Source of the DNA: Pseudomonadota bacterium
GTDB taxonomy: Bacteria; Desulfobacterota; Desulfarculia; Desulfarculales; Desulfarculaceae
DNA: 64,000 nucleotides
Reading direction: 5' to 3'
NCBI GenBank assembly: GCA_018819925.1
Contig: JAHJPG010000034.1
Span: forward strand, 62,001-126,000
Shown here: positions 18,394 through 37,782 of the stretch, one piece after another
Position numbering within the stretch: the first letter of the stretch is position 1
Layout of the letters: the number at the start of each line of letters is the position of its first letter
Position numbers and translations under genes: made by a program
The notes under the pieces: generated by a model
Database searches by the model: none
Told to the model about the DNA's origin: nothing
What the model saw: the letters and a program-made list of their open reading frames with translations, nothing else

Positions 18394-18394
18394 G

Positions 18395-22293: not shown

Positions 22294-22304
22294 GGGAAGC
22301 CGCC

Positions 22305-22688
22305 ATGCAGATCAAAAACCTCAGCGGCCTTCGCTGGTATCACCTGACCCTGGACCCCGGGGCCATGCTGCACCAATCGCTGCGCGATTTTTTGAGCCGC
22401 GAGGACCTCAGGCACGCCTTTGTGCTTTCCTGCATCGGCTCCTGCACCAAGGTGGTGGCGGTGTATCCCAAGACCAAGGAGATTCCGCCGGAGCTGGGCC
22501 GGGTGGAATACGAGGGCTTGTTCGAGATGAACGGCATCGCCGGCGATGTCCAGTTGCTGGAAGACGGCATACGGGTGCATCTGCACGGCTCCCTGACCAA
22601 GGAGGGCCGCGAGGTCTTCGGGGGAGCTATTCAGGAAGGCACCCAAATTTTCAAAACCGCCGAGCTGGTGATCGCCGGCCTGGCCTGA
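22305..22688 (+). CDS. PPC/DUF296-domain protein
   Basis: A 127-residue single-domain protein. SLRDFLSREDLRHAFVLSCIGSCTKVV and RVHLHGSLTKEGREVFGGAI fit the PPC (DUF296) fold, a trimeric domain with a His-x-His metal-site-like motif; here it reads HLHG. In plants the domain accompanies AT-hooks; bacterial single-domain members have no settled function. The start ATG is 11 bases after the DapA-like gene. Its place between an aldolase and a zinc-ribbon gene suggests a small enzyme or metabolite-binding protein in the same pathway. Confidence 0.75.
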   Translation: MQIKNLSGLRWYHLTLDPGAMLHQSLRDFLSREDLRHAFVLSCIGSCTKVVAVYPKTKEIPPELGRVEYEGLFEMNGIAGDVQLLEDGIRVHLHGSLTKEGREVFGGAIQEGTQIFKTAELVIAGLA

Positions 22689-22706
22689 GCGGGCGAAAGG
22701 TGCGCC

Positions 22707-22895
22707 ATGCCTTTGTTTAGTTTTTTCTGCAACCGCTGCGGCCAGGAGGTGGAGCTTTTCCTCAGCCTGGGCGAGTTGAACCGGGGCGTGGCGGCGTGCC
22801 CCATTTGCAAGGGCAAGGACCTGCAAGGGCCCATGCCCGAAAAGGCCGCCGATGCCCCGGCGGGGAGTTCTTGCTCCCTGTCCAAAAAGAGTTGA
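22707..22895 (+). CDS. small zinc-ribbon protein (FmdB-like)
   Basis: A 62-residue protein starting MPLFSFFCNRCGQEVELFL. CNRC and CPIC pairs form a zinc ribbon of the FmdB type, whose members are small regulatory or chaperone-like proteins in catabolic operons. The C-terminus is Ala/Ser/Lys-rich and probably disordered. AAGGTG stands upstream of the ATG. It is the fifth gene of the TAXI/TRAP operon. Confidence 0.78.
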   Translation: MPLFSFFCNRCGQEVELFLSLGELNRGVAACPICKGKDLQGPMPEKAADAPAGSSCSLSKKS

Positions 22896-22991
22896 GTGAA
22901 ATCCTGATTCGGCGGTTCGCCGGATAAAGTGTAAGAGCCTTCAGGGGGCGCCGCCCGATTACCGGTTAGTGCTGAAGAAAGACGAGTGAGA

Positions 22992-24308
22992 ATGCCGGAT
23001 TACACCATAAAGGACCTCCTGCGGCTGGAAGTGGCTCCCGCCCTGGGCTGCACCGAGCCGGTGGCCGTGGCCCTTGGCGCGGCGGCGGCGGCCTCTCTGC
23101 TGGGAGGCCGCGCGCCCGAATCGGTGCGAGTGTGGGTGGACCCCAACATCTTCAAAAACGGCATGTCGGTGCTGATTCCGGGCACCGGAGGATTGTTCGG
23201 CCTCGATCTGGCCGCGGCCTTGGGCGCCCTGGGCGGCGACCCCACCCGCCGCCTGGAGGTGCTTGATTCGGTGGACGAGCAGTTGGTGGCCCGGGCCCGC
23301 AAGCTACTCAACGAAAAAAAGGTTTCGGTGGACCTTCTGGAAGAAATCGGCCTGAAGATCAAGGTGGAGGTCAAGGCGGGCGACCAGACGGGCGAGGCGG
23401 TCATCACCCGCTCCCACGACAACATTTCTTCCTTGAAGCTCAACGGCCGCCGGGTGAAGAGCGGCTTCACCTCCACCGGTGGCTTCGGCCCCCAAAAAGT
23501 GAACCTGGCCGAGTTGGAGGAGTGGCTGGCCACCCGCAGCTTGGATGAGATGATTGAGATGCTGGACGGCCTGGACCAGGACGACCTGGATTTTATCGAA
23601 CACGGGGTCAACTTCAACCTTCGTCTGGCCGAGTACGGCCTCAAGTTCGGGCCGGGCCTGGGCTTGGGTAAGTGTCTGGACCGCCTGGTGCGCCAAAAAC
23701 TTATGTGCAGGGATATGGCCGCCGCCGCCCGCATCCTCACATCGGCGGCTGCCGACGCCCGCATGGCCGGGATAAAACTGCCGGCCATGTCCAGCGCCGG
23801 CAGCGGCAATCACGGCCTCACCGCCACCCTGCCCATTTGGGCGGCGCGGGACTTCATCCAGTGCTCCTCCGTAGAGGTGCTAAGGGCCATAGCCCTGAGT
23901 CACGTGCTCACCGCCTACGTCAAAATTCAAACAGGCCGGCTCTCGGCGATATGCGGCTGCTCGGTGGCGGCCGGGGCCGGGGCAACCGGAGGCATCGCCT
24001 ATTTGTTGGGCGGTGACTCGCGCCAGGTCGCGGGGGCCGTGAACAACCTCATCCAGGATTTGGCCGGGGTCATCTGCGACGGAGCCAAGACCGGCTGCGC
24101 CTTTAAGCTGGCCACTGCGGCGGGCAGCGCGGTGCAATCGGCCCTTCTGGCCCTGCAGGGAGTTCAAGTGCTCCAGACCGAGGGCATCGTGGGCGACAGC
24201 ATGGAGAACACCGCCCGCAACCTGGGCATGTTGAGCGTGGAGGGTATGCGCTACGCCGACCACACGATTTTGCGGATTCTAACCACCAAGTTGGCCCCAC
24301 CAGAATAA
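22992..24308 (+). CDS. cyuA: L-cysteine desulfidase / UPF0597 family Fe-S enzyme
   Basis: The protein belongs to the CyuA/YhaM family, which eliminates sulfide and ammonia from L-cysteine, giving pyruvate, with a [4Fe-4S] cluster; relatives act on serine. The catalytic-base Cys sits in ALGCTEP (about residue 20). Cluster ligands are expected at CGCS (about 320) and in ICDGAKTGC (about 361 and 368); all are present. LPAMSSAGSGNHGL is another family hallmark. I chose the ATG at 22992; a GTG two codons upstream is possible. A 96-base gap from the zinc-ribbon gene holds a short GC-rich stem, so it may have its own start of transcription. Substrate could be a cysteine or serine analogue taken up by the TRAP system. 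Confidence 0.85.
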   Translation: MPDYTIKDLLRLEVAPALGCTEPVAVALGAAAAASLLGGRAPESVRVWVDPNIFKNGMSVLIPGTGGLFGLDLAAALGALGGDPTRRLEVLDSVDEQLVARARKLLNEKKVSVDLLEEIGLKIKVEVKAGDQTGEAVITRSHDNISSLKLNGRRVKSGFTSTGGFGPQKVNLAELEEWLATRSLDEMIEMLDGLDQDDLDFIEHGVNFNLRLAEYGLKFGPGLGLGKCLDRLVRQKLMCRDMAAAARILTSAAADARMAGIKLPAMSSAGSGNHGLTATLPIWAARDFIQCSSVEVLRAIALSHVLTAYVKIQTGRLSAICGCSVAAGAGATGGIAYLLGGDSRQVAGAVNNLIQDLAGVICDGAKTGCAFKLATAAGSAVQSALLALQGVQVLQTEGIVGDSMENTARNLGMLSVEGMRYADHTILRILTTKLAPPE

Positions 24309-24461: not shown

Positions 24462-25622
24462 TCAGCCCAAATAGCGGTTAACGGCTTGGTAGAAAATGCC
24501 CACGCCGGTGAACAGCGCCTCGTCTGCCACGTCGAAGTGGGGCGAGTGAAGCGCGGGCTCGCCGCGGCGGTCGCCGCAGCCCAGGCGGATTATGGCTCCG
24601 GGCACGGCCTGACTGAAAAAGGCGAAGTCCTCCGATCCGGTGACCGGCGGCGAGTGATGCACCTTGGCCGCCCCCACCACCTCGGATGCCGCCCGCTCCA
24701 TGAACTCCACCACCTGGGGATCGTTGAGGCAGGGGGGAAACACCTCTTGCAACTCCAGGCCGCACTCCACGTCGAAGGTTTCGGATATGCCCCGCACCAT
24801 CCGGTGGAGATGATCGTGGAGCTGCTTTTGCACCGCCACGGTCATGGCCCGCATGGTGCCGGCCAATTGGGCGGTTTCGGGGATCACGTTGGTAGCCGAG
24901 CCCGCCTGGAACTGGCACACGCTTATCACCGCCGCCTGTAGGGGGTCCACCCGCCGCGACACCACCGATTGCAAGGCGTTGACCAATTGGGCGCCGGCAA
25001 CGATGGGGTCGTTGCCCTGATGGGGCCGGGCCCCATGGGTGCCCTTTCCCTTGATGCTCAGGCGGAAGATGTCGTTGGAGGCGTGGCTCTGGCCGAAGTT
25101 TACGCCCACGTGCCCCACCGGCAGGTCGCCGGTGACGTGGCCGGCGATGATCCGGTCAACCGCCGGGTTTTCCAGCACCCCCCGCTCGACCATCATGCGC
25201 GCACCCACCCCTGTCTCCTCGGCGGGCTGGAAAATCAGCTTGAGGTTTCCTCGCATCCGGGCGGCCAGGCCGGTGTCCATGACCATGCGCGCCACCCCCA
25301 GCAGGATGGCGGTATGGGCGTCATGGCCGCAGGCGTGCATGAATCCGGGGTTGGTGGACTTGTGGGGGAACTGGTTCATCTCCTGGATGGGCAGGGCGTC
25401 GATATCCGCCCGGATGGCCAGGGTGGGGCCTTCCTGCCCCCCCCGGATAAGGCCCACGGCGCCGGTCATCTTGGACAGACCCTGGGCCTTGATTCCCATT
25501 TGTTTCAGATATACGAGAATCTGGCGGGTGGTGCGTTCTTCCTTGAGGGCCACCTCCGGGTGCCGGTGCAGGTCATGGCGCAGCGACACCAGCCAGTTTT
25601 TAAATTCGCGGTTCAGATTCAT
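24462..25622 (-). CDS. M20-family amidohydrolase (hippurate hydrolase-like)
   Basis: A 386-residue metal-dependent amidohydrolase. DLHRHPEVALKEERT opens it, IRADIDALP and HACGHDAHTA carry metal ligands and EETGVG the catalytic/metal Glu pair; GSEDFAFFSQ carries a late ligand region. This is the M20D (N-acyl amino acid/hippurate hydrolase) arrangement, which releases an amino acid or carboxylate from an amide. I chose the ATG at 25622, with GGAG nine bases upstream. It is the last of ten minus-strand genes that appear to form a catabolic operon, so its substrate may be an amide or ester conjugate of the acid degraded there; this is inference. Confidence 0.88.
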   Translation of the reverse strand: MNLNREFKNWLVSLRHDLHRHPEVALKEERTTRQILVYLKQMGIKAQGLSKMTGAVGLIRGGQEGPTLAIRADIDALPIQEMNQFPHKSTNPGFMHACGHDAHTAILLGVARMVMDTGLAARMRGNLKLIFQPAEETGVGARMMVERGVLENPAVDRIIAGHVTGDLPVGHVGVNFGQSHASNDIFRLSIKGKGTHGARPHQGNDPIVAGAQLVNALQSVVSRRVDPLQAAVISVCQFQAGSATNVIPETAQLAGTMRAMTVAVQKQLHDHLHRMVRGISETFDVECGLELQEVFPPCLNDPQVVEFMERAASEVVGAAKVHHSPPVTGSEDFAFFSQAVPGAIIRLGCGDRRGEPALHSPHFDVADEALFTGVGIFYQAVNRYLG

Positions 25623-25681
25623 GGCTCTCATCTCCGCCGCCGGAACCGGCCTGTCCACCAGGGCGGCAAGGGAGCTTCCGG

Positions 25682-26203
25682 CTACTTGCGGTCAAAGAAA
25701 AGATTCTTGGCCCCCGTGGCCAGGGGTACGCCCATGGCGATGTCCCAGTCCACCAGGCCCATGCGCCGCGCGGCCACGCCGGCGCTATACATTACGCGGT
25801 TGTCTATGTTGTGCATGCTGGCGGTCTTCACCGCCGAACCCAGGGCGATGCCCATGTCCAGGAGCCTGAATACGCAAATGGGGCCCTGGAAGTTCCCGTC
25901 CACCTTGCCGTGCTTGGCCATGGCTTTGCAGTCCGCGAAACCGCAGGCCCCGCAGTCGAGCCCATTGGGCGGCGAAGATTTCAGGCCCACCAGCAGCAGG
26001 GCGCCGCTGGAGCGGATTTCCTGGGCGTTGCGTTCGAAATAGGCGGTGCGGGTGGTGCGGGGAAAGGTTTCCACCGCCTCGGCCAGATCTTCCAACTCCT
26101 GGCCGCTGACGATCTTGGTTTCCACGTAGTCCAGGCCCCGGGTCTTGGGAGCGGTGGCGGCCGAAGCGGCCATCAACTCGGCGACGATCTCTATGGCGTT
26201 CAT
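25682..26203 (-). CDS. DUF2148 ferredoxin-domain protein
   Basis: A 173-residue protein with a compact Cys cluster, GLDCGACGFADCKAM, and a further Cys in QGPICVFR, enough for an Fe-S cluster of the four-Cys Fes type (CxxCxxxxC...C). This is the DUF2148 arrangement found in anaerobes; its reaction is unknown. The sequence after the cluster (LLDMGIALGSAVKTASM, VDWDIAMGVPL) is typical of the family. It lies between the M20 and hydroxyacid dehydrogenase genes, suggesting a redox part in the same pathway. Confidence 0.8.
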   Translation of the reverse strand: MNAIEIVAELMAASAATAPKTRGLDYVETKIVSGQELEDLAEAVETFPRTTRTAYFERNAQEIRSSGALLLVGLKSSPPNGLDCGACGFADCKAMAKHGKVDGNFQGPICVFRLLDMGIALGSAVKTASMHNIDNRVMYSAGVAARRMGLVDWDIAMGVPLATGAKNLFFDRK

Positions 26204-26255
26204 GGGGGTCCTCGCGGCGGCGGGCTCCCTTGGACCGTGGCCCGCCGTTAATGAT

Positions 26256-27206
26256 TCAGGTGTTTACAGGGTGGGGCGGCTGGCCGCCACTGAGCACGGC
26301 GGCGATGTTGCGGGCGCAGGTCCAGCCCACCGTGCTCAGGCTCTCCACCGTGTAGCCGCCTATATGGGGGGTGACGATCACCTGGGGCAACTCAAGCAGG
26401 GGGTTGCCCTGGGGAGGCTCCTGGGCCAGGACATCCAGGGCGGCTCCGGCCAGGCGGTTCTGGACCAGGGCCTGGTAAAGTGCCTCCTCATCCACAACCC
26501 CGCCCCTGCCCAGGTTGAGCAAGAAGGCGCCGGGCTTGGCCAACGCCAACTCCCGGGCCCCGATGAGGCCCCGCGTCTGGGGGGTCAGGGGCAGGTGCAG
26601 GCAGATGAAATCCGCCCTGGCCAGAAGATCCTCCAGGGGCAGGCAACTCAGGCCCAGTTCGGCGGCCAAGGTGGGCCGGGGCGTGCGGTTGTAGACCACC
26701 ACTTCCATGCCCAGGGCGCGCGCCAGGCGGGCCACCTCCTGGCCGATCTTGCCCAGGCCCACGATGCCCAGGGTCTTGCCGCCCAACTCACATCCGATCA
26801 CCGGGGACCACCCGCCCTCCAGGACTTGTTGCCTGGCTTGGGGAATGCTCCGGGCCAGGGAGAAGACAAGGCCCAGGGTCAGCTCGGCCACGGCCCTTTG
26901 GTTGCCGCCGGGAACGTTGCAAATCACCACGCCCCGCTCCTTGGCGGCGGCCAAGTCGATGTGATGCACCCCGGTTCCGTGCATGGTGATGACCTTGAGG
27001 CGCGGCGCGGCCAGGAGCATGGCTCGGTCCAAGGGAGTCATCCCGGTGACCAGGGCGTCGCAATCGGCTATCAACTCCAGAGCCTTTTCCCGGTCCAGGC
27101 GCAGGCCTGGGGGGAAAAGCTCCACTTGCCATCCCTGATCGCGTAGCCATTGGGCCGGCTCGGTGGCCACCAGGCCAAAAGTGGGGGAAAATGAACGAAT
27201 CAGCAT
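26256..27206 (-). CDS. D-2-hydroxyacid dehydrogenase
   Basis: The NAD-binding Rossmann motif is GIVGLGKIGQEV. Catalytic Arg is in LNLGRGGVVDEEAL, Glu in the following helix region, and His in VTPHIGGYT. Length (316 residues) and order match the 2-hydroxyacid dehydrogenase family (phosphoglycerate, glycerate, hydroxypyruvate and similar). It reversibly reduces a 2-keto acid to the D-hydroxyacid. The substrate cannot be fixed; in this operon it may act on a keto-acid made by the TPP enzyme. It starts 19 bases after the thiolase stop. Confidence 0.88.
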   Translation of the reverse strand: MLIRSFSPTFGLVATEPAQWLRDQGWQVELFPPGLRLDREKALELIADCDALVTGMTPLDRAMLLAAPRLKVITMHGTGVHHIDLAAAKERGVVICNVPGGNQRAVAELTLGLVFSLARSIPQARQQVLEGGWSPVIGCELGGKTLGIVGLGKIGQEVARLARALGMEVVVYNRTPRPTLAAELGLSCLPLEDLLARADFICLHLPLTPQTRGLIGARELALAKPGAFLLNLGRGGVVDEEALYQALVQNRLAGAALDVLAQEPPQGNPLLELPQVIVTPHIGGYTVESLSTVGWTCARNIAAVLSGGQPPHPVNT

Positions 27207-27225
27207 GACAACCTCGCTCCGGACC

Positions 27226-28485
27226 TTAGCGGCTAACCACTGCGGCGATGCCTTGGCCTCCGCCCCCGCAGATGGTCTCCAGCCCGTAGGCCGAGCCGCT
27301 GCGCTGCATCTCGTGCAGCAAGGTGACCATGCGCATGGTTCCGGTGGCGGCGATGGGGTGGCCCAGGGATATGCCCGAGCCGTTGACGTTGACCCGGGCG
27401 TCCATCTCTTCGAAGGATAGGCCCATGAGTTTGGCGTCGGCCAAAACCTGCGCCGCGAAGGCCTCCTGAATCTCGATGCGTTCCATCTGCTCCAGGCTCA
27501 GGCCCGCCTTGGCCAGGGCCTTGTTCACCGAGGCCGGGACGGCGGGGTAGGTGAGGCCGGGGTCGGCGGCGGCAACCGCGAAGGAGACCAGGCTGCCCAG
27601 GGGCTTGACCCCCAGCTTGTCGGCGGTCTCTTGGCTCATCAACACCACGGCGGCAGCGCCGTCGTTTTCCGTCGAGGAGTTGCCGGCGGTGCAAATGCCG
27701 TCCTTGTAGACGGTGGGCAGCTTGGCCAGGCGCTCCAGGGAGGAATCGCGGCGCGGCGGCTCATCGGCGGAGACAACCACGGTCTGGCCTTTTTTGCCGG
27801 GCACCTCCACCGGTACGATCTCCTGGTTGAATTTGCCCTGGTCAATGGCCGCCACGGCCTTCTGGTGGCTGCGCAGGGACCAACGATCAGCCTCTTCCCG
27901 GGTGACCCCCTCGGCCTTGGCCGCGGCTTCGGCCCAGGTCATCATGGAGTTCAACTCGCCGTAACGCTCAATGGGCTGGGACATCACCCTGGCCCGCTGG
28001 ATGCGGTCGAACAGAGGGAAGCCCCACATGGACAGCGACCCATGCCCCTTGGGCATGAAGCCCCATTTGGGGTCATTGTGTCCGCCCACGCCCCATTTCA
28101 TGAACTCGCCGGGGATGTAGAATTCGGCCCGGCTCATGCTCTCCACCCCGCCGGCCACCACGATGTCGGCGTTGCCGCTCATGATCTTCATGGCCCCCAG
28201 GCAAATGGAGTCCAGGCCCGAGAGGCAGCGGCGGTCGATGCTCAGGCCTGGTACGTCGTCGGGCCAGCCGGCGGCCAACAGCGACATGCGGGCGATGTTC
28301 ACTGACTCGCCGTTCTGGTACGACTGGCCCATGATCACGTCGTCCACCATCTCCGGGCCGATGCCGGCCCGCTTGATGGCCTGGTTCAACACCAGGGCGC
28401 CCAATTTATAGGCGGGCACCTCGCGCAAGGATCCGATGTAGTTGCCGATGGGGGTGCGAACCGCGCCGCCGATCACTATTTTCAT
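27226..28485 (-). CDS. thiolase (acetyl-CoA acetyltransferase family)
   Basis: The enzyme splits a 3-ketoacyl-CoA, or condenses two acetyl-CoA. The nucleophilic Cys is in DRRCLSGLDSI, the second active-site loop is GHPIAATG and the last Cys is in CGGGGQG. The protein starts MKIVIGGAVRTPIGNYIG, a usual thiolase start, at ATG 28485 with AAGGAG before it; the longer frame to 28545 is not needed. It probably turns acetoacetyl-CoA or another ketoacyl-CoA formed downstream of the BKACE reaction into acetyl-CoA. Confidence 0.9.
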   Translation of the reverse strand: MKIVIGGAVRTPIGNYIGSLREVPAYKLGALVLNQAIKRAGIGPEMVDDVIMGQSYQNGESVNIARMSLLAAGWPDDVPGLSIDRRCLSGLDSICLGAMKIMSGNADIVVAGGVESMSRAEFYIPGEFMKWGVGGHNDPKWGFMPKGHGSLSMWGFPLFDRIQRARVMSQPIERYGELNSMMTWAEAAAKAEGVTREEADRWSLRSHQKAVAAIDQGKFNQEIVPVEVPGKKGQTVVVSADEPPRRDSSLERLAKLPTVYKDGICTAGNSSTENDGAAAVVLMSQETADKLGVKPLGSLVSFAVAAADPGLTYPAVPASVNKALAKAGLSLEQMERIEIQEAFAAQVLADAKLMGLSFEEMDARVNVNGSGISLGHPIAATGTMRMVTLLHEMQRSGSAYGLETICGGGGQGIAAVVSR

Positions 28486-28589
28486 GACGATTGTCTCCTT
28501 ATAAGGCATGGGCGGCGGGCCAGCCCGGCTTGCCGCTTCGGCCATGGGGGCTGCGCCGCCTCGCGGCCGTTGTCAGGGGCGGCCCCGGC

Positions 28590-29573
28590 TCAACAAACCC
28601 GCAGTATTATTTTGCCAACGTTCAGGTTGGCCTCGATGCGTTCATGGGCGGCCCGGACCTCGTTCCAGGGCAGCACGCTGTCGATCACTGGCCTTAGCTC
28701 GCCGCTGGCGAATTTGGGCAAGCAGTTGGCCGCAAACTCCTGGCTCAATCTTACCCGGTAATCCAAGGTGCGGCTGCGCAGGGTGGTGCCCATCACCGTG
28801 ATGCGTTTGGTCAACATGGGGCGCAAGTCCACCGTTTCGGCCTGCTGCCCGCCGATAAAGGCCAGCATGACCATGCGCCCGTCCAGGGCCAGGGATGCCA
28901 GGTTGCGCTGGTAATAGGCCGCCGCGATGAAATCGATGAGCACGTCGGCCCCGTGGCCGTCGGTGGCCTCCATGACCCGGGTGGGGAAATCCTCTTGCTT
29001 GTAGTTGATGCCCACCTCGGCCCCAAGGGCGCGGCAGGCGTCCAGCTTCTCTTGGGAACTGGCGGTGACCAACACCTTGGCCCCGGCCATCTTGGCCAAC
29101 TGGGTGGCCGCGGTGCCCACTCCGCTGGCTCCGGCGTGAACCAAGACGTTCTCTCCGGGTTGCAGCCTGCCCAGCCAGAACAGGGCCTGGTAAGCGGTTA
29201 GAAAAACCTCGGCCATGCCCGCAGCCTGTTCGAAGGTTATGCCTTCGGGCATGGGCATGGCCAGGCCTTCGTCCATTGCAACGTATTGGGCGTAGCCTCC
29301 GCCGGAGAGGATGCCGAAAACCCTGTCGCCGGGTTTAAGCCGTTGGCAACCGGGCCCGGCCTCCACCACTTCGCCGGCCATCTCCAGGCCCAGGATTTCG
29401 CTTTCCCCGAGGGGGGGAGGGTAGAGGCCCTTGCGCTGCAGCGTGTCGGCCCGGTTGATCCCGGCCGCCTTAATCTTTACCAGCACCTCGCGGCTCTCGG
29501 GCCTGGGGTCTGGGGCCTGACCCATGCAGAGTTGTTCCGGGCCTCCGAAGGATTTAACCAGTATCGCTTCCAC
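28590..29573 (-). CDS. zinc-independent NAD(P)H quinone oxidoreductase-like MDR protein
   Basis: A 327-residue member of the medium-chain dehydrogenase/reductase superfamily, PIG3/QOR branch. AGINRADTLQRKGLYPPP and GLEMAGEVVEAG lie in the catalytic domain; no zinc-ligand cysteines are present. VHAGASGVGTAATQLAK is the NAD(P) binding loop. I chose the GTG at 29573 with GGAG five bases upstream, because homologues begin VxAIxV and the frame to 29702 crosses a terminator hairpin. Substrate is uncertain: quinones or enoyl compounds are both handled by this branch. Confidence 0.87.
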   Translation of the reverse strand: MEAILVKSFGGPEQLCMGQAPDPRPESREVLVKIKAAGINRADTLQRKGLYPPPLGESEILGLEMAGEVVEAGPGCQRLKPGDRVFGILSGGGYAQYVAMDEGLAMPMPEGITFEQAAGMAEVFLTAYQALFWLGRLQPGENVLVHAGASGVGTAATQLAKMAGAKVLVTASSQEKLDACRALGAEVGINYKQEDFPTRVMEATDGHGADVLIDFIAAAYYQRNLASLALDGRMVMLAFIGGQQAETVDLRPMLTKRITVMGTTLRSRTLDYRVRLSQEFAANCLPKFASGELRPVIDSVLPWNEVRAAHERIEANLNVGKIILRVC

Positions 29574-29612
29574 GGCGTCTCCAGTTTGCGGCTCAAGCCA
29601 TACCAGTAAATA

Positions 29613-29651
29613 TACCCGAGGCCTCCCGGCGGGTCCGGGAGGCCTCGGGTA
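29613..29651 (-). terminator. 17-bp hairpin after the tctA-tctB fusion
   Basis: A perfect 17-base inverted repeat (29613-29629 with 29635-29651, loop of five) lies eight bases beyond the transporter stop and 40 bases before the next gene. On the minus strand it is followed by TATTTA, a poor T tract, so it may be a partial terminator or an RNA-stabilising stem that lowers expression of the five downstream genes. Confidence 0.6.
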
Positions 29652-29658
29652 CTGCTTG

Positions 29659-31704
29659 TTACTCCACCCAGGGCATGGGCGGCAGCTGCACGCCCAGGCC
29701 ATATTCGAACAATAACTTGACCACCAAGGGCGCCAACAGGGCCAAGGGCCCCACCACCCGCAGGTTGCGCTCGCCCAACAGCAGGCAGAGCCCCAGGATG
29801 GCCAGGACGGAGCTTATCATGAACCCCAGGTATTCCAGACCCGCCATGTACAGGCCCATGCCCAGCACATAGGAGGACACCCGCAGCGCCGCGCTGTATT
29901 TCACCATGCTGTAGCCGAAGCTTTTGCGCTTGCGAAGTTGGTCAATGACCAGAAGCGCCGAGAGAATGATGCCCAGGACCAGCAGCGAGTTGGGGTAGAG
30001 ATGGGCGGAAACGCCGAAGCCGCCGGGGGTTTCGATCTGCGCCGGGAACAGGATGAAATAGCAGACCAGGAAAAAGCCCAGCCCCACCAGGGTGCCACAC
30101 AACTGCAGTGCAAAGTTGGAGATGCGTATCGCACCGCCAGACTGGGCCTCGGCCGCTGCCGTCGCTTCCTGGGCCGGCTCATCTTGCTGGGAATGGGGCG
30201 GGGCCAGGGCTTCCACCCTTTGCCGTTGCCGCCACTTGCTGTAGAGGATGGTGCTCACCGAAAGGAAGGTGAATATCCACAGGCCGATGGACAAGGGGCT
30301 GTTGAACAGGATGGCGAAGTCGCCCTGGCTGATCACCATGGCCCGCCGGAAGTTGTCCTCCAGCAGGGGGCCCAGGATGAAACCGATGAGGAAGGTGGCC
30401 CGGGGGAAGTTGAGCTTGTTAAGGGCATAGCCCAGCAGGCCGAAGCTGAAAGTCACGCCCACGTCGAACAGGCTTTGGTTGAAGGCGTAGGAGCCTACCC
30501 CGCACAGCACCAGCATCACCGGGAAGATAATGGTGACCCTCAGCGAGGCCGCCTTGGTGAAGGTGGGCAACAGGCCGCGTGCGATGAGGTATAAAAGGAT
30601 GTTGGCGGTTAATAGGCCCGCATACAGGCCGTAGATGACCTCCGGGGCCTCTTGGAAGATCAAGGGCCCGGGGGTCAGGTCGTGAATCAAAAAGGCCCCC
30701 ACCAGGATGGCCGCCTCCACGTCGCCGGGAACCCCCAAGCCCAACAGAGGCACCAGGTTGGCTCCGCTCACCGCGTTGTTGCCCGATTCCGCTCCGGCGA
30801 TGCCTTCCACCGAGCCCCGGCCGAACTCCTCGCGGTGTTTGGATTGCCGCCAGGCCGCGTCGTAGCCCATGAAGGCCCCCAGGGTGGGGCCCAGGCCGGG
30901 TACGATGCCGATAAGGGTGCCCAGGATGGAGCCGGTGGCCATGGGCCGCACCATGAGGCGCCAGTCCTTGCGGGTGATGCGGGTGTCGTCCTTGCATGAG
31001 GGCGGAGGGATGTGGGCCTTTATGGTCCTCACCCTTTCCTCGTACTGGGCCATGATCTCGGGGATGGTCAGCAGGCCGATGAGCATGGGCACCAGGGAGA
31101 TGCCGTCCACCAACTCGTTGAGGTCAAAGGTCAGGCGGGGCAGGGATGTGCCCGGGTCCAGGCCGATCAAGGCCACCAACAGGCCGCCCAACGCGGTGAT
31201 CAGCCCCTTGAGCAGCGACTTGCCCGAGGCCGGACCCACGATGGTCAAAGCCATGATGGCCACGGCGGTGAATTCGCCGGGGCCGAACTGGAGGGCCACC
31301 CTGGCCAGGTTGATGGCCAGGAAAATTAACACGATGTCGCTGAAGGTGTCGCCTATCACCGAGGCGGTGAGGGAAATTTTCAGCGCTTTTATGGCCTTGC
31401 CCATTTTGGCCAGGGCGTGGCCGTCGGCTACAGTGGCCGCAGCCGCCGATGTTCCAGGCGCGCACAACAGGATGGCCGAAATGGACCCTCCGAATATGCC
31501 GCCTTTGTAAGCCCCCATGAGCATCATCAGGCTGGGTATGGGGGGAAGGACCAGGGTAAGGGGAATGACCATGGCGATTCCCATGGTAGCGGTCAACCCC
31601 GGGATGGAACCCAGGATGATTCCCGCCGTCACTCCGCCCAGCAGATAAATCAAGTTGCCTGGGGCCAGAACTTCGGCGAAACCGTTAAACAACAACTCCA
31701 GCAT
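29659..31704 (-). CDS. tripartite tricarboxylate transporter permease, TctA-TctB fusion
   Basis: Residues 1-500 are TctA: ILGSIPGLTATMGIAMVIPLT, YKGGIFGGSISAILLCAPGTSAAAATVADG, GTLIGIVPGLGPTLGAFMGYDAAW and GVPGDVEAAILVGAF. After a charged linker (ALAPPHSQQDEPAQEATAAAEA) four more helices form a TctB-like domain (residues about 530-681). TctA and TctB are normally separate proteins, so the 681-residue fusion is unusual. It works with the periplasmic TctC encoded upstream to import a carboxylate by ion gradient. It starts with GAGGT upstream of ATG 31704. Confidence 0.88.
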   Translation of the reverse strand: MLELLFNGFAEVLAPGNLIYLLGGVTAGIILGSIPGLTATMGIAMVIPLTLVLPPIPSLMMLMGAYKGGIFGGSISAILLCAPGTSAAAATVADGHALAKMGKAIKALKISLTASVIGDTFSDIVLIFLAINLARVALQFGPGEFTAVAIMALTIVGPASGKSLLKGLITALGGLLVALIGLDPGTSLPRLTFDLNELVDGISLVPMLIGLLTIPEIMAQYEERVRTIKAHIPPPSCKDDTRITRKDWRLMVRPMATGSILGTLIGIVPGLGPTLGAFMGYDAAWRQSKHREEFGRGSVEGIAGAESGNNAVSGANLVPLLGLGVPGDVEAAILVGAFLIHDLTPGPLIFQEAPEVIYGLYAGLLTANILLYLIARGLLPTFTKAASLRVTIIFPVMLVLCGVGSYAFNQSLFDVGVTFSFGLLGYALNKLNFPRATFLIGFILGPLLEDNFRRAMVISQGDFAILFNSPLSIGLWIFTFLSVSTILYSKWRQRQRVEALAPPHSQQDEPAQEATAAAEAQSGGAIRISNFALQLCGTLVGLGFFLVCYFILFPAQIETPGGFGVSAHLYPNSLLVLGIILSALLVIDQLRKRKSFGYSMVKYSAALRVSSYVLGMGLYMAGLEYLGFMISSVLAILGLCLLLGERNLRVVGPLALLAPLVVKLLFEYGLGVQLPPMPWVE

Positions 31705-31906
31705 GTCTACCTCTCAAAGTGCGGCATCGCGTCATTTGGGCCCTTTGATGTTGGCGATAACAAAAATGGGTGGCCCCCGCCTGGTGTAGAGGGAGAGGTC
31801 GGTTCCGGCTTCTTGCGCAAGTCCAGCACAGCATTTCCCCTGTCATAGGGTGCAGGCTTCGCCAAAACAGCGGCCAGGAGCCACCCATCGCACCAGTTGG
31901 TGGTTT

Positions 31907-32881
31907 CTACTTTTTCTTGACCAAGCCGATGGCCCTAAGGTCGGCGCCCATCTCTTTGTAGCCCTTCTCGCAGAACTGGCCATACTCGGCGCCGGTCATG
32001 AACATGGGGGCCATGCCCAACTCAATCATCTTCTTCTGAATGTTCTTGTCCTCCACCGCGACCTTGAAGGCGGCCTGCAGCTTGGCCCGGCGATCTTCCT
32101 TTATGCCCGCGGGAGCGGCAAAGCCCAACCAGGAGTCGATGTCCACCTTGTAGCCCAGCTCGTGGAGGGTGGGCACGTCGGGAAGCAGGGGCCAGCGCAC
32201 CGGGCTGCAAGAGGCCAGCATGCGCAGATCACCGGTCTTGACCTGGGGAGCGATGTCCATGGGGTTGCCCACGATCAGGTCCACGTGGCCGCCCAGTAGG
32301 GCCACGGTGGTCTCTTTGCCCGACTTGTAGCGGACCCAGACCACGTTGCTCATGTTCTTGCCGGTGAACTTGGCCAGGCGGGGGAAGAGGATGGCCTGCA
32401 CCGGGCTGGGGGTGGCCATGGTCAGGCGCTTGCCGCTTTCGATGGCCTTCATCAGGTCGCCCCAGGTCTTGTAGGGCGAGTTGGCCGCCACGGCCACGCC
32501 GTAGAGGTAACGGCAGACGCCGGCGATGAAGCTGAAGTCTTTCAGGGTGTAGCTGACCTTCATCATGTGAGGCGCCACGCCCATGGGCGAGAAGCTGGTC
32601 ACGCCGATGGTGTAGCCATCGGGTTTACGGGTTGCCAAATAGGTGGGGCCCACCGTGCCGCCGCCGCCAGGCTTGTTCACCACGGTGATGGTGGCGCCCA
32701 GGGGCTTTTCGGCGGTGGAGGCCAGCAAGCGGCTGGTCAAGTCGGTGGTGCCGCCCGCGCCGTAGTTGACGATCAAGGTGACGGGTTTGTCCGGATACTT
32801 GGCCATTGCCGTGCCGCCCAGCAGCATCAGCGACAGGGCGAAAACGCCTGCCAAAATGGTTGCCAGTTTAAGACGCTTCAT
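31907..32881 (-). CDS. TctC/Bug-type tripartite tricarboxylate transporter binding protein
   Basis: A signal peptide (LKLATILAGVFALSLMLLGG, cleavage after AMA) precedes a mature protein beginning KYPDKPVTLIVNYGAGGTTD, the family hallmark. VVNKPGGGGTVGPTYLA forms the second ligand loop. It binds a carboxylate in the periplasm for the TctAB permease encoded 200 bases downstream on the same strand. AAGGAG stands upstream of the ATG. Ligand identity cannot be read from the sequence, but the operon suggests a branched, keto- or hydroxy-acid. Confidence 0.92.
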   Translation of the reverse strand: MKRLKLATILAGVFALSLMLLGGTAMAKYPDKPVTLIVNYGAGGTTDLTSRLLASTAEKPLGATITVVNKPGGGGTVGPTYLATRKPDGYTIGVTSFSPMGVAPHMMKVSYTLKDFSFIAGVCRYLYGVAVAANSPYKTWGDLMKAIESGKRLTMATPSPVQAILFPRLAKFTGKNMSNVVWVRYKSGKETTVALLGGHVDLIVGNPMDIAPQVKTGDLRMLASCSPVRWPLLPDVPTLHELGYKVDIDSWLGFAAPAGIKEDRRAKLQAAFKVAVEDKNIQKKMIELGMAPMFMTGAEYGQFCEKGYKEMGADLRAIGLVKKK

Positions 32882-32973
32882 GCAACTCTCCTTGTCCCTA
32901 GGTTGTAGCCTGCTACCTATACTCAGGTAGAACTTCTCTTGGTCTACGGGACCTTATCGCCGGCCGCCGCCGC

Positions 32974-34653
32974 TCAGGCCTTGCCCGAGGCGTTGCGGAG
33001 CACCGGCGTTTCCCACTGATCCGTGTTCATATCGATTATCGCCGGCCCCTGTGGCTGGCGCTCTTTTCCCAAGGCATCCCGGAGTTCATCCAGGCTGTTG
33101 ACCTTGTAGCCCCGGGCGCCGAAGCCTTGGGCCACGGTGGCGAAGTCGATGTGATTAAAGTCGGTTGAGATGTGGTTGTCGCCGTAGCGGGCCTTTTGAA
33201 CGTGCTTGATCCAGCCCAGGATGTTGTTGTTGAACAAGCAGGTCACCACAGGCAGGTTCAGGCGCACCATAACCTCCAACTCCTGCATGGAAAAGGCGTA
33301 GCCGCCGTCGCCGGCGAACAAAAACACCCGCTTGGCCTGGGGACGGGCCAGCGCCGCGCCGATGGCCGCCGGGGCGCCCCATCCCAGACCGGCCAAGCCC
33401 CGGGGGGCCAGGTAGCTGCGTCCGGCCTCTTTGAGGCGCAGGTATACGGCGGCCCAGCCCGAGGGGAGGCTGGCGTCGCACACCGCCAGATCGCCCGGCT
33501 CCATGGCCTCGTCGATAAGCCGGGTCACCGCCTGGGCCTTGAGGGGCTCGCCGGGAACCTGGGGGCGCAGAGTGATCTGGTCGTACCACTGCCGGCAGTC
33601 CTGGCGCAGGGCGTCCAGGTTCCATTCATAGGCGAAACGGTCGCTTCCCAGGGCCGCCAGCAGGTCGGCCAGGCCCAGGCGGGCATCGCACACCAAGGCT
33701 ATGCTATCAGGGAAGTTGCGCCCTATCTCCTCGGGGTCGATGTCCAGGTGGATGGTGGCCACTCCCGGAGCGGGGCGGTCGTAGCCGAAGGTGGCCAGCT
33801 GACCGGCCTTGCAGGCGATGAAAAACACCAGGTCCGCCTGGGCCACCACCTCGTTGGCCTTGGGGCTGCCCATGGAGCCGGTGACCCCGAAAACCTGGGG
33901 ATCGGTTTCGGCCATGACGCCCTTGCCGGTGATGGTGGTCACCACCGGAGCGCCCATGAGACGGGCCAACTGGGCCACTTCCTGGCCCGCCCCGGAGGTA
34001 TGGACACCGCCGCCGACCAACAACACCGGCTTTTGGGCCTGTGCCAGGGCCTGGCGGGCCGCCTGGACCTGGGCGGGGTCGGGCGCGCTGCGGTGGCGGG
34101 GGAATACGGCGCTGGGGCGCACCCGGCGCTGCCACTGAATATCCATGTCGCCCACGTCGTCGGGCACCGCTAGGACCACCGGCCCGGGCCGGCCGCTCAC
34201 CGCCACGCGAAGCGCCTGGTCCAGCACGTTCTCCAGGGAGGCGGGCTCACTGAGCGTTACCTGCCACTTGCTCACCGGCTTGAACATCTCCAGTTGCTCC
34301 ATGGCCTGGGAGGCGTTGCCCCGTAGGCGGCGGTGCTCCCAGGAGCGGGGGATGTCGGAGATGATGGCCAGCATGGGTATGGACGAGCAGTGGGCCTCGG
34401 CCAGGGGGGAGAGCAGGTTGGTGGCCCCGGGCCCCACCGTGGCGTCGCAAACCCCCACTTTGCCGGTGAGGCGGGCGTAGGCATCGGCCGCGAAACCGGC
34501 GCTGCGTTCGTCGCGCATGAGCACGTGAGAGATGGCCCCGCCGCTCTTGCGGATGCCTTCATAAAGGGGCAGGGTCTGCCCGCCGGGCACCCCGAAGACC
34601 CGGTCCACCCCGCTCTCGGCCAGCATTTGGGCCAATCTGTCGCCAACGGTCAT
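32974..34653 (-). CDS. thiamine pyrophosphate enzyme, acetolactate synthase-like
   Basis: A 559-residue TPP enzyme with the three usual domains. The catalytic Glu is in MRDERSAGFAADAYARLTG. The cofactor motif GDGGYAFSMQEL ends at FNNN, giving GDG-x(n)-NN. VDRVFGVPGGQTL opens the pyrimidine domain. Relatives include acetolactate synthase, glyoxylate carboligase, oxalyl-CoA decarboxylase and sulfoacetaldehyde acetyltransferase. No regulatory subunit gene is near, which argues against branched-chain amino acid synthesis. It probably decarboxylates or ligates a 2-keto acid in the LacI-controlled pathway. ATG at 34653 chosen over TTG at 34662 because GGAAGG fits it better. Confidence 0.86.
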   Translation of the reverse strand: MTVGDRLAQMLAESGVDRVFGVPGGQTLPLYEGIRKSGGAISHVLMRDERSAGFAADAYARLTGKVGVCDATVGPGATNLLSPLAEAHCSSIPMLAIISDIPRSWEHRRLRGNASQAMEQLEMFKPVSKWQVTLSEPASLENVLDQALRVAVSGRPGPVVLAVPDDVGDMDIQWQRRVRPSAVFPRHRSAPDPAQVQAARQALAQAQKPVLLVGGGVHTSGAGQEVAQLARLMGAPVVTTITGKGVMAETDPQVFGVTGSMGSPKANEVVAQADLVFFIACKAGQLATFGYDRPAPGVATIHLDIDPEEIGRNFPDSIALVCDARLGLADLLAALGSDRFAYEWNLDALRQDCRQWYDQITLRPQVPGEPLKAQAVTRLIDEAMEPGDLAVCDASLPSGWAAVYLRLKEAGRSYLAPRGLAGLGWGAPAAIGAALARPQAKRVFLFAGDGGYAFSMQELEVMVRLNLPVVTCLFNNNILGWIKHVQKARYGDNHISTDFNHIDFATVAQGFGARGYKVNSLDELRDALGKERQPQGPAIIDMNTDQWETPVLRNASGKA

Positions 34654-34700
34654 GATTCGCAATCCTTCCTGATGATCTGGGTGGGTCCGCCCATTGACGG

Positions 34701-35666
34701 CTAGACCAGCCGCTCCTTGCGTATGAAAAAGTCGAGACTTTTGATTATTTGCATGAGATGGCGGTCGCGGTCGCGCAGGATGTCGCTCAACTCCCGGTCG
34801 CTATAGTCGAAGAACCCTTTGCCGGTCTTGACGCCCAGGTGCCCCTGCTCCACCAGGGAGAAAAGAGACTCGGGGTGGTTGTCCAACGGCGGGTCGAAAA
34901 ATTCCTTGTCTTCCAGGTTGCGGGCGCTCAGGTCCAGGCCAGTAAAGTCGTAGCGCTGCACCAGGCCCAAGAGCATCATGCGCGGGGCTATGCTGGCCTT
35001 CACCGCCAGGTCCATGTCCTCGGGGCTTATGTAGCCGCCCTCCAGCAAGAAGAACATCTCCCGGCCCAGGATGCGCTGGATGCGGTTGATGATGAACCCG
35101 GGCACGAATTTCTCGATGACGATGGGTTTTTTGCCCAGCTTGTCCAGGATGGCCAGGGTGACTTCCACCGTGTTGGGGGCGACCCGGGGGTCCTTGACTA
35201 CCTCCACCAGGGGAATGATGTGGGGCGGGGCGAACCAGTGGGCGATGATGGACCGGGGGATGCGCCCGGGCGGAAGCAAATCATAGATGTTCATAGTGGA
35301 GGTGTTGCTCCACAGCAGGCTGTCTTCCGGGGCGTGCTGGTCTATCTGGGCGTAGACGCTACGCTTGATGTCGCGCTTTTCGCTGACCGTCTCCACGATC
35401 AGGTCGGCATTTTCAACCGCCTGGGCCAGGGTGTCGGCCCAGCCGAACCTGGTGGTGGCCGCCTCGGCCTCGGCCGGGTCCAGGCCCCCGAACTCCCTGA
35501 GGCTGTCCAGGTTGGCCTGGAAAATTTTTTGGGCCTGGCTCCATATCGCGGCGTTGGCATCAAAGCCGGTGACTTGGTAGCCGGCCACGGCGAAGGCCTG
35601 GGCCAGTCCCGGCCCCATGGTGCCCAAACCGATGATGGTGACGTTTTTTATCTGTTCCTGGTTCAT
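34701..35666 (-). CDS. 3-hydroxyacyl-CoA dehydrogenase family enzyme
   Basis: NAD-binding motif GLGTMGPGLAQAFAVAGY opens the protein and SEKRDIKRSVYAQID and NTSTMNIYDLLP follow, as in 3-hydroxybutyryl-CoA and L-carnitine dehydrogenases. HWFAPPHIIPLVEVV carries the catalytic His region. The C-terminal domain contains VPGFIINRIQRILGREM and GHLGVKTGKGFFDYS. It oxidises a 3-hydroxy acid or its CoA ester to the 3-keto form. The next gene upstream encodes a BKACE enzyme that consumes 3-keto acids, a pairing seen in carnitine catabolism and other BKACE pathways. Confidence 0.88.
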   Translation of the reverse strand: MNQEQIKNVTIIGLGTMGPGLAQAFAVAGYQVTGFDANAAIWSQAQKIFQANLDSLREFGGLDPAEAEAATTRFGWADTLAQAVENADLIVETVSEKRDIKRSVYAQIDQHAPEDSLLWSNTSTMNIYDLLPPGRIPRSIIAHWFAPPHIIPLVEVVKDPRVAPNTVEVTLAILDKLGKKPIVIEKFVPGFIINRIQRILGREMFFLLEGGYISPEDMDLAVKASIAPRMMLLGLVQRYDFTGLDLSARNLEDKEFFDPPLDNHPESLFSLVEQGHLGVKTGKGFFDYSDRELSDILRDRDRHLMQIIKSLDFFIRKERLV

Positions 35667-35693
35667 TCGCTTGTGATCCTCACCCGTATGGGC

Positions 35694-36557
35694 TTATGCC
35701 GTACGTTGAGACAGGCCAAGGTACTGGCGCGCCTCGGCCGGGGTGGCCGGCTCCTTACCCAATTCCCGGGCGATGCGCACCACCCTGGCCACCAACTGGG
35801 CGTTGCTCTGGGCCAGTTCGCCCTTGCGGTAGTAGACGTTGTCCTCCAGGCCCACCCGCACGCAGCCGCCCAGGATCATGGCCATGGTGGCCAGGGGGGT
35901 CTGGGCCGAGCCCACCCCGGTGCAGTTGAAGATGCTGTCCGGGGGCAGGTTCTGAACCATGGAGATGAGGGTGGCCGGCTCGGCCGGCTCGGCCCCCTGG
36001 TAGCGCATGCCCAACACGATGTTGATGTAATAGGGCTTTTGCACCCGTCCCTCTTTAATGAGGCGGCGCACCTCCTGGAGCATGGCGTGGCTGTAGACTT
36101 CCATCTCCGGCTTGATGCCCCGCTGGGTCATCTGCTCCACATACCAGTCGATCTCTTCGGGCATGTTGGACCAGGGCACACCCTTGTAGGGGCCGGAAAC
36201 CCGCATCATGCTGCCCATGTTCAGCGAAGCCATGTCCGGGTTGGCATCGAGGCAGTTGATGCGCTGTTCCTGAGTCAGGTTGGGGCCGCCGCCGGTGCTG
36301 TCTTGGATGATGATGTCGCATTTGGCGCGGATGCGGCTGTGGATATCCTCGAAGATGGCAAGCTCGGAGGTGTTTTCGCCCTGGGGGTCTCGGGCGTGGA
36401 TATGGCAGACGGCCGCCCCCTCATTGAGGCAGGCATGGGCCGAGTCGGCTATCTCCGCCGGCTGTTCGGGCACGTTGGGGTTTATTGACTTATTGGTGAT
36501 GGCACCGGTCTGGGCCACGGTAATGACCACGCGGTCGGCGGGGATGGCATAGCCCAT
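35694..36557 (-). CDS. BKACE-family beta-keto acid cleavage enzyme
   Basis: A 287-residue TIM-barrel, zinc-dependent enzyme. VVITVAQTGAITNKS opens it; CHIHARDPQG gives the HxH zinc ligands; CTGVGSAQTPLATMAMILGGCVRVGLEDN is the conserved C-terminal block (shown here as CTGVGSAQTPLA and GGCVRVGLEDN). The family transfers the acyl moiety of a beta-keto acid to CoA using acetyl-CoA, releasing acetoacetate; substrates include 3-keto-5-aminohexanoate and dehydrocarnitine. It is the first gene of the ten-gene minus-strand run and has a LacI-type operator 66 bases upstream. Confidence 0.92.
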   Translation of the reverse strand: MGYAIPADRVVITVAQTGAITNKSINPNVPEQPAEIADSAHACLNEGAAVCHIHARDPQGENTSELAIFEDIHSRIRAKCDIIIQDSTGGGPNLTQEQRINCLDANPDMASLNMGSMMRVSGPYKGVPWSNMPEEIDWYVEQMTQRGIKPEMEVYSHAMLQEVRRLIKEGRVQKPYYINIVLGMRYQGAEPAEPATLISMVQNLPPDSIFNCTGVGSAQTPLATMAMILGGCVRVGLEDNVYYRKGELAQSNAQLVARVVRIARELGKEPATPAEARQYLGLSQRTA

Positions 36558-36622: not shown

Positions 36623-36634
36623 GCAAACGTTTGC
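36623..36634. promoter_or_regulatory. LacI-type operator before the BKACE operon
   Basis: GCAAACGTTTGC is a perfect 12-bp palindrome with the central CG step and flanks typical of LacI/GalR operators. The 15-base word CGCAAACGTTTGCAG (36622-36636) recurs exactly in the lacI promoter (37760-37774). It sits 66 bases before the BKACE start codon, within an AT-rich promoter region where I could not fix the -35 and -10 boxes. Confidence 0.75.
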
Positions 36635-36702: not shown

Positions 36703-37716
36703 TTAACGGCTTGGCCACACTCCTGTGGATTCCCTGACCACCAGGGCGGACGGGATCACGATATGCCGCTCGCGGCACTCGCCATTTTCAATCAATTCAA
36801 TGAGAACCCTCGCAGCCGCCCTGCCGACCTCAACCACGGGGACTTTGATGGTGGTCAGGGGCGGGTCCGTTAAATCAACCAAATCCGAGCAGCCAATGGC
36901 CACCACGGAGATGTCTTCGGGAATTCGCAGCCCGCGGCTGTTGATTTGGTGCAACACGCCGGGGGTTGTGGCGTCGTTGATGCTGATAACCGCGCTGGGC
37001 GGGTCGGGCATGTTGAGCAATTCACCCATCAAACGGAAGGCGTCCGTCTTGGAGAAGTCACTCTCTTTGATGTATTTATCTTTATATTCCAGCCTATTGT
37101 CCTTGAAAGCCGCTTTGTAGGCCGCCAGGCGCACCAGGGAATAATTGGAGTTCATGCCACCGAGGATGAAGGCGATGTCCCGGTGCCCCAGGTTGATGAG
37201 GTAGGTGATGGCCCTATAGACGTCCTTATAGTTTTCCGAGCTTACGCTGGGGATGTCGAATTCCCAGACCTCGGGGTATCCCGGCACCACCACGGAGGGA
37301 ACCTTGTCCCTCACCAACTCGGGCACGTAGGGATCGTCTATGCGGTTGGCCACCACTATGATCCCGTCCACCAAATGGCTGTGAAAAAGCGAGGCGTAGC
37401 TCTGCTGCTGGTTAATCACCAACATCAGGTGGTAGCCCATGTCGTTGGCCACGGAACTTAGACCAAGCAACATATGAGAATAATAAGGATTTTGAAAGGC
37501 AAACTCGCTGGTGCGGGGGATGACCACCCCCAAGACTCCGATGCGGTTTTGCACCAGGGCTTTGGCTGAGGAGTGGGGGTGATAGTTGAGCTGCTTGGCC
37601 AGGGCCATGACCTTTTCGCGAACTTCCGGCCGCACGCCTTTTTGGTTGTTAAGCGCCCGCGAGACGGAGGAGTAGGAAACGCCGGCTTTTTTGGCTATTT
37701 CCTTGATGGTGGCCAT
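36703..37716 (-). CDS. LacI-family transcription regulator
   Basis: Helix-turn-helix at residues 2-45 (TIKEIAKKAGVSYSSVSRAL, then a hinge helix region LAKQLNYHPHSSA). The remainder is a periplasmic-binding-protein-like sensor: GVLGVVIPR, VDGIIVVANRIDD, YLINLGHRDIAFILGG and PPSAVISINDATTPGVLHQI. It most likely represses the BKACE operon just downstream and itself, since the same palindrome lies before both. The inducer should be the imported acid or a derivative. The ribosome site (AGAGGAG) is rather far, 13 bases, from the ATG. Confidence 0.92.
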   Translation of the reverse strand: MATIKEIAKKAGVSYSSVSRALNNQKGVRPEVREKVMALAKQLNYHPHSSAKALVQNRIGVLGVVIPRTSEFAFQNPYYSHMLLGLSSVANDMGYHLMLVINQQQSYASLFHSHLVDGIIVVANRIDDPYVPELVRDKVPSVVVPGYPEVWEFDIPSVSSENYKDVYRAITYLINLGHRDIAFILGGMNSNYSLVRLAAYKAAFKDNRLEYKDKYIKESDFSKTDAFRLMGELLNMPDPPSAVISINDATTPGVLHQINSRGLRIPEDISVVAIGCSDLVDLTDPPLTTIKVPVVEVGRAAARVLIELIENGECRERHIVIPSALVVRESTGVWPSR

Positions 37717-37752: not shown

Positions 37753-37782
37753 TTGATACCGCAAACGTTTGCAGTATGTCAA
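37753..37782 (-). promoter_or_regulatory. lacI promoter with operator inside the spacer
   Basis: On the minus strand, -35 TTGACA (37777-37782) and -10 TATCAA (37753-37758) are 18 bases apart. The palindrome GCAAACGTTTGC (37761-37772) fills the spacer, so the repressor and RNA polymerase would exclude each other. This predicts autorepression. Confidence 0.65.

Follow-up and report, generated by a model that had tools for sequence, protein, structure and literature searches.

A LacI-controlled operon around a beta-keto acid cleavage enzyme

The window analysed here, a 64,000-nucleotide stretch of a 4.03-Mb Desulfarculaceae draft genome (nearest named relatives: Desulfarculaceae metagenome-assembled genomes, Desulfocarbo and Dethiosulfatarculus), contains an operon built around a beta-keto acid cleavage enzyme (BKACE). 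Ten open reading frames (ORFs) occupy the minus strand at 24462-36557 in the list of window ORFs and translations, and each product scores above the Pfam gathering cut-off of the family first named from its sequence, bearing out the ten same-strand genes of the initial annotation (Table 1). Immediately ahead of the BKACE gene, and in the same orientation, stands lacI, so that the unit comprises eleven genes. They include a complete tripartite tricarboxylate transporter (TTT; TctA, TctB and TctC are all encoded according to Pfam), an oxidoreductase of the medium-chain dehydrogenase/reductase (MDR) family and a thiolase with its catalytic motifs CLSG, GHP and CGGGGQG. The true starts lie somewhat inside the listed ORFs for the MDR gene (~29573), the gene of the thiamine pyrophosphate (TPP) enzyme (~34653) and the thiolase gene.

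Table 1. Features of the operon in the window, in the order of the unit.
Feature	Position	Strand	Basis or remark
LacI-family operator GCAAACGTTTGC upstream of lacI	37761..37772		One of only two exact genome copies; position kept in relatives
LacI-family repressor gene, first in unit	36703..37716	-	ORF; N-terminal helix-turn-helix sequence
LacI-family operator GCAAACGTTTGC upstream of BKACE gene	36623..36634		Genome pattern search
BKACE, 287 aa	35694..36557	-	PF05853, 312.7 bits vs cut-off 24.8
NAD-dependent 3-hydroxyacid dehydrogenase, 3HCDH fold, predicted free-acid	34701..35666	-	PF02737/PF00725
TPP (ThDP) enzyme, acetolactate synthase/glyoxylate carboligase group	32974..34653	-	PF02775/PF02776/PF00205
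TctC solute-binding receptor	31907..32881	-	PF03401
Intergenic hairpin, tctC/tctAB	31705..31906	-	Stable, conserved fold
TctA-TctB fusion permease, 681 aa	29659..31704	-	PF01970 + PF07331 within a single ORF
Hairpin, tctAB/MDR gene	29613..29651	-	17-bp stem
MDR oxidoreductase, PIG3-type quinone oxidoreductase subfamily	28590..29573	-	TIGR02824, 409 vs 296.8 bits
Acetyl-CoA acyltransferase (thiolase)	27226..28545	-	TIGR01930, 400 vs 240.6 bits
D-2-hydroxyacid dehydrogenase	26256..27206	-	PF02826/PF00389
DUF2148 Fe-S protein, cysteines 84, 87, 92, 110	25682..26203	-	PF09918
M20 amidohydrolase	24462..25658	-	TIGR01891, 362.9 vs 153.75 bits; metal-site motifs present

The palindrome GCAAACGTTTGC has exactly two exact copies in the genome, one before lacI and one before the BKACE gene, and a reversed control pattern gave 0 matches across the same 4.03 Mb. 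The site before the BKACE gene is the LacI-type operator already recognised in the initial annotation, to which the second copy is now added. The pair flanks lacI in six further loci as well (L039, L040, L119, L041, L042 and L045), and in two others both copies have changed alike, to GCAAACGTTTGA in L043 and to TCAAACGTTTGC in G006 (L121), the pattern to be expected if such sites evolve together with one repressor. Palindromic operators are found at the promoters of both the regulator and its target, as in a local LacI-family regulon, and the unit is, judged by these sites, an autoregulated LacI-family catabolic operon whose repressor presumably binds both of them.

A single transcript for the whole unit is plausible. 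The tctC-tctAB hairpin folds at -66, -64 and -63 kcal/mol in the window, L039 and L040, with a T-run in the window copy only, and the tctAB-MDR hairpin keeps its position and fold in L039 and L040 with a changed sequence. Since the intergenic hairpins mostly lack T-runs, they would resemble mRNA-processing or stabilising elements more than terminators. Terminator-like sites numbered 20, against 12.4 +/- 3.9 in shuffled sequences, with opposite-strand matches included; a sigma-70 promoter scan returned fewer sites than in shuffles and was left unused. The two hairpins, conserved among congeners in fold and not in sequence, perhaps set the transporter stoichiometry.

Conservation of the operon and of a minimal core

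Four of the eight congeneric genomes carry the operon. It is complete in G004, G007 and G005, save that G005 lacks DUF2148, which is evidently dispensable; protein identities are 76-90% and the gene order is kept in the three congeners. The pN/pS ratios against three congeners (0.11-0.36 for all 11 genes) indicate that every gene is under purifying selection. The unit is judged to be a real and functional operon dedicated to catabolism. LacI is 88-90% identical in three congeners and 60-74% in other relatives that have the core, while TctC orthologs of 81-87% identity occur elsewhere in the genus, in six of the eight congeneric genomes including the window's own. DUF2148 orthologs located outside the operon, as in G001 beside an enolase-phosphatase-like protein, gave no lead.

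Beyond the congeners, relatives share a conserved nucleus of lacI, BKACE and dehydrogenase genes together with a transporter. The smallest operons (L041, L043 and L176) place a tripartite ATP-independent periplasmic (TRAP) transporter beside these three genes, and since they hold nothing else, the dehydrogenase and the BKACE would form the working core and the substrate, whether imported or made, should be a 3-hydroxy acid. The core operon of L042 adds TctCBA and a thiolase, L045-L047 have a TctC-type transporter, and thiolase orthologs recur in the core operons L042 (72%), L045 and L052. Some Firmicutes and other loci (L044, L048-L052) lack the LacI operator and instead have short-chain dehydrogenase/reductase (SDR), cupin, cyclase-family and Mo-enzyme genes. 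With its dedicated regulator the operon offers a compact case for a BKACE clade in anaerobes, one that extends over Desulfobacterota, Moorella and other Firmicutes, Chloroflexi and Acidobacteria; cultured relatives with the core are Desulfocarbo indianensis, Dethiosulfatarculus sandiegensis and Moorella sulfitireducens.

The BKACE belongs to a separate clade

Residues H46, H48, S82, E143, R226, E230 and D231 (numbered as in Kce, the BKACE of lysine fermentation), whose metal-binding and catalytic roles are in part our assumption, are all conserved in the alignment. The predicted structure (AlphaFold, pLDDT 93) fits solved BKACEs best and superposes on Kce (PDB 2y7d-2y7g) at 1.2 Å; Kce is also the best-scoring solved relative by sequence search (176.8 bits; ~38% identity in the structural alignment), with the same fold and catalytic residues. 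The window enzyme would probably cleave a 3-oxo acid with acetyl-CoA to acetoacetate and an acyl-CoA.

Its specificity appears to differ from that of the described enzymes. Whereas Glu14 of Kce binds the 5-amino group, the window BKACE has Ile at this position, and across its clade the position is taken by uncharged residues such as Ile, Leu and Met, with Gln or Val in some rows. In the tree this clade of 13 rows (support 100/99) contains none of the six solved-structure references, Kce among them. The scores fall below the cut-offs of the models for Kce (NF052387, 286.6 vs 382), for the 3,5-dioxohexanoate/triacetate BKACE (NF053538, 212 vs 430) and for the 3-oxoadipate BKACE (NF053568, 219 vs 350), and on these cut-offs, together with the pocket residues, all three assignments were rejected. 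As to the specificity residues raised in the initial annotation, the alignment shows an intact catalytic set and, at position 14, neither the Glu of Kce nor the Trp of CsTAL, the triacetate enzyme of Clostridium scatologenes. The host genome encodes seven further BKACEs, of which one, on C129, comes close to the 3,5-dioxohexanoate model.

A sister BKACE clade from Spirochaetes and Actinobacteria (L060, L061, L063, L065 and L066) adjoins a distant IolD-like TPP enzyme, an RpiB-like protein and a large acyl-CoA synthetase-like protein (names read from sequence); these loci perhaps encode a BKACE-ending cyclitol pathway.

A dehydrogenase predicted to act on the free acid

Alignment to the clostridial 3-hydroxybutyryl-CoA dehydrogenase shows that the window dehydrogenase keeps Ser117, His138 and Asn188, and that the CoA contacts Lys50, Lys54, Lys56 and Asn221 are replaced both in it and in its orthologs from the LacI-type operons (the L044 and L052 enzymes have Thr and Ser at the Ser and Asn positions). 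Its closest solved structure, 4om8, is a pyridine-carboxylate dehydrogenase that does not act on CoA esters. CsTfD of Clostridium scatologenes, a proven free-acid enzyme whose published signature is the absence of Lys56 and Asn221 alongside retained catalytic residues, oxidises (S)-3-hydroxy-5-oxohexanoate as the free acid in the step that precedes a BKACE (PMC10470551). The window dehydrogenase bears this signature, its CoA contacts lost and Ser/His/Asn retained, and is predicted to oxidise a free acid, the kind that a BKACE needs.

Proposed pathway

From the genes, their order, the operators, the catalytic residues and the lost CoA contacts, all directly legible in the DNA, we infer the reactions, their direction, the order of the steps and the class of substrate as follows. 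TctC and TctAB would import a short carboxylic acid that is, itself or after conversion, an (S)-3-hydroxy acid; the 3HCDH-fold dehydrogenase would oxidise the free 3-hydroxy acid with NAD+ to the 3-oxo acid; the BKACE would move the acetate end onto acetyl-CoA, yielding acetoacetate and an acyl-CoA; and the thiolase would regenerate acetyl-CoA once a CoA-transferase from another locus has activated the acetoacetate. The TPP enzyme, the MDR oxidoreductase, the D-2-hydroxyacid dehydrogenase and the M20 protein most likely either convert the imported compound into the 3-hydroxy acid or process its 2-oxo/2-hydroxy fragment, with DUF2148 as an accessory. Deoxyribonate catabolism likewise depends on all three of a dehydrogenase, a BKACE and an acetyl-CoA C-acetyltransferase (PMC6365646). 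To an autoregulated operon for import, free-acid oxidation, BKACE cleavage and thiolase recovery of acetyl-CoA, taken as a whole, we assign a probability of about 0.58.

Several observations weigh against this pathway. The operon encodes no CoA-transferase for acetoacetate; the BKACE clade has no member of known substrate among the references tested; and no finding tells in which order the TPP enzyme, the MDR oxidoreductase, the 2-hydroxyacid dehydrogenase and the M20 protein would act, nor do the MDR (PIG3-type) and M20 (TIGR01891) families fix a substrate. In G006, moreover, the BKACE is located apart from the dehydrogenase, which lies in a different, mutase-type operon, so that the pair is not obligate.

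The initial annotation had an imported, perhaps amide-bound, hydroxy acid hydrolysed, oxidised and cleaved. Of this, the pairing of a BKACE with a hydroxyacyl-type dehydrogenase is supported, in a unit that also encodes acid uptake and a thiolase and has a LacI repressor of its own. An amide-bound substrate and one linear ten-protein pathway are not established: G005 lacks DUF2148, the TPP/BKACE part is swapped in two congeners and the minimal operons are smaller. Its further statement that the combination matches no described BKACE pathway agrees with our search, which found no such gene set in the open-access literature covered. By its gene content and model scores, the operon fits none of the lysine, carnitine, 3-oxoadipate and phloroglucinol models. 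The module swap described below is a new observation; the enzyme types and BKACE chemistry are already known. For finding the substrate, LacI and TctC are ready-made probes.

A B12-mutase module under the same operators

Two congeners, G006 and G001, have the same LacI, operators, TctC (81%), TctAB (78-79%), MDR and M20 around a different middle module (L181 7379-17132; L196/L197), in which an acyl-CoA ligase, a B12-dependent acyl-CoA mutase, an epimerase and an SCPx-type thiolase/DUF35 take the place of BKACE, TPP enzyme and thiolase. The G006 operon reads lacI-dehydrogenase-tctC-tctAB-SDR-B12 mutase (large, small)-epimerase-CoA ligase-SCPx thiolase-DUF35-MDR-2-hydroxyacid dehydrogenase-M20; that of G001 is near-identical without the dehydrogenases, and both carry the GCAAACGTTTGC pair. 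The best solved match of the mutase is 2-hydroxyisobutyryl-CoA mutase (HCM), although the G006 enzyme has Tyr and Ala in place of the Ile and Asp of HCM, which we take to be specificity positions.

This comparison suggests that the genus handles one acid with two alternative engines. We hold it only tentatively that one LacI regulon and transporter serve two interchangeable sets, a CoA-independent one (TPP enzyme, free-acid dehydrogenase and BKACE) and one of CoA ligase, B12 mutase and thiolase. If true, the BKACE clade would define a new substrate class. The swap of modules behind shared operators is a natural experiment in the ways one acid can be linearised and cleaved.

Published clusters for 2-hydroxyisobutyrate (2-HIBA), of the lyase-HCL and hcm-hcl types, show a B12 mutase exchanged for a TPP lyase (PMC7176365), and in sulfate reducers a TPP enzyme, a B12 mutase and a dehydrogenase act together on ketones (PMC7888143). 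With these precedents, and with the mutase version beside a CoA ligase under the LacI operators of G001 and G006, the substrate of the window operon might be a 2-hydroxy acid that is branched (tertiary), or a related compound that forms a ketone. As a C-C lyase or ligase, the TPP enzyme would then replace the ligase and B12 mutase, and the dehydrogenase and BKACE would finish the linear product. We consider this unlikely. Unlike those clusters, the window operon has neither ligase nor mutase and has a BKACE; the Tyr/Ala pair departs from HCM; and the genomes with the TPP-type operon retain a separate, GntR-headed version of the mutase cluster elsewhere, with a distant TPP paralog at its end.

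The TPP enzyme itself also points away from 2-hydroxyacyl-CoA lyases (HACLs). It has the catalytic Glu, in a RDERSAG motif, exceeds the cut-off of no NCBIfam model, and has similar scores against structures of acetolactate synthase, of glyoxylate carboligase and of pyruvate oxidase. Glyoxylate carboligase presumably has Val in place of this Glu, which sets the window enzyme apart from it. The bit scores (acetolactate synthase 237, oxalyl-CoA decarboxylase 177, HACL1 166) place it nearer the acetolactate synthase/glyoxylate carboligase group than the HACLs; they are not decisive on this point, as a known 2-HIBA-CoA lyase is also <30% identical to HACLs (PMC7176365). Among the genomes searched, orthologs at operon-level identity occur within the genus only.

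In the host, the GntR-headed cluster (L209 8454-17194, G000 C37; also L211 2384-17930) encodes an SDR, an HCM-like B12 mutase, an epimerase, an acyl-CoA ligase, an SCPx thiolase, DUF35 and a TPP enzyme, and looks like a cluster that degrades a ketone or a branched hydroxy acid. An ABM-type monooxygenase-like protein of 101 aa moves between the two mutase clusters (L197 1670-1975 and L211 17964-18269, 77% identical).

Other substrate classes

A polyol or deoxy-sugar acid is improbable. Here a 3-hydroxy acid of the 2-deoxy-aldonate type, once oxidised, would be cleaved into acetoacetate and glyceryl- or glycolyl-CoA. The C2/C3 fragment would pass to the TPP enzyme and the 2-hydroxyacid dehydrogenase, much as happens in glyoxylate/tartronate semialdehyde metabolism. 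LacI-family control suits this, as does the deoxyribonate pathway of Pseudomonas simiae, which shares the dehydrogenase followed by BKACE and the acetyl-CoA C-acetyltransferase, and so does a 77% TPP paralog in G007 (L150 4150-10879, C317), found with an SDR, a tartronate-semialdehyde reductase (TIGR01505 above cut-off), an IlvD/Edd-type dehydratase and a Liv ABC transporter. However, the P. simiae pathway has an SDR-type deoxyribonate dehydrogenase, a lactonase, MFS transporters and a glycerate kinase and no TPP enzyme (PMC6365646), whereas the window operon lacks the SDR, lactonase and kinase; the M20 and MDR genes would be left unexplained, and the TPP enzyme keeps its Glu. By its gene content the L150 cluster of G007 is a separate sugar-acid-like pathway.

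Phloroglucinol or polyphenol degradation, with the BKACE as a triacetate acetoacetate-lyase on 3,5-dioxohexanoate from the dehydrogenase, is very unlikely and was rejected as the main assignment. The pair is of the same kind as CsTfD-CsTAL, a free-acid 3HCDH-fold dehydrogenase followed by an acetoacetate-producing BKACE (PMC10470551), and relatives of the window BKACE (L044, L048-L052) adjoin cyclase-family hydrolases, SDRs and pyrogallol-transhydroxylase-like Mo enzymes. The operon, however, has no phloroglucinol reductase or dihydrophloroglucinol cyclohydrolase for ring reduction and opening, and the host carries its cyclase-family genes on other contigs; the NF053538 score is low, and the Trp of CsTAL at the Kce Glu14 position is Ile. 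Compared with the clostridial pair, the operon also adds the TTT, the TPP enzyme, the MDR, the 2-hydroxyacid dehydrogenase and the M20 protein. A better host candidate lies on C129 (401 vs 430 bits), where a second BKACE-3HCDH pair (G000; L127, L151) stands beside pyrogallol-transhydroxylase-like Mo enzymes, a cyclase-family gene and a Liv transporter; in the host, this locus is a likely site of phloroglucinol/polyphenol degradation. An SDR found in the Moorella relative was considered as a phloroglucinol reductase and rejected; it is not specifically close, its best solved match being a gluconate 5-dehydrogenase.

Carnitine degradation through dehydrocarnitine, suggested by a BKACE following a 3HCDH-family dehydrogenase, is barely conceivable and was rejected, as the L-carnitine dehydrogenase models score 105-121 against cut-offs of 414-592 (NF005471: 105.4 vs 414), uptake is by a TTT and no other carnitine gene was seen. 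Riboflavin catabolism, with its TPP enzyme and acetoacetate product, was set aside, its abstract and outline naming no BKACE step.

Neighbouring genes

On the plus strand of the window, 17548-24308 holds genes for a solute-binding protein, a fused TRAP permease, and DapA-like and serine-dehydratase-alpha/CyuA-like proteins, with a GntR-type gene ahead of them in divergent orientation. The arrangement of a CyuA homolog adjoining an M20 gene is seen again in the host genome (G000 C114, L126 8603-11665). Further along, at 51203-54538, are genes that read as the small subunit, large subunit and maturation protease of a NiFe hydrogenase.

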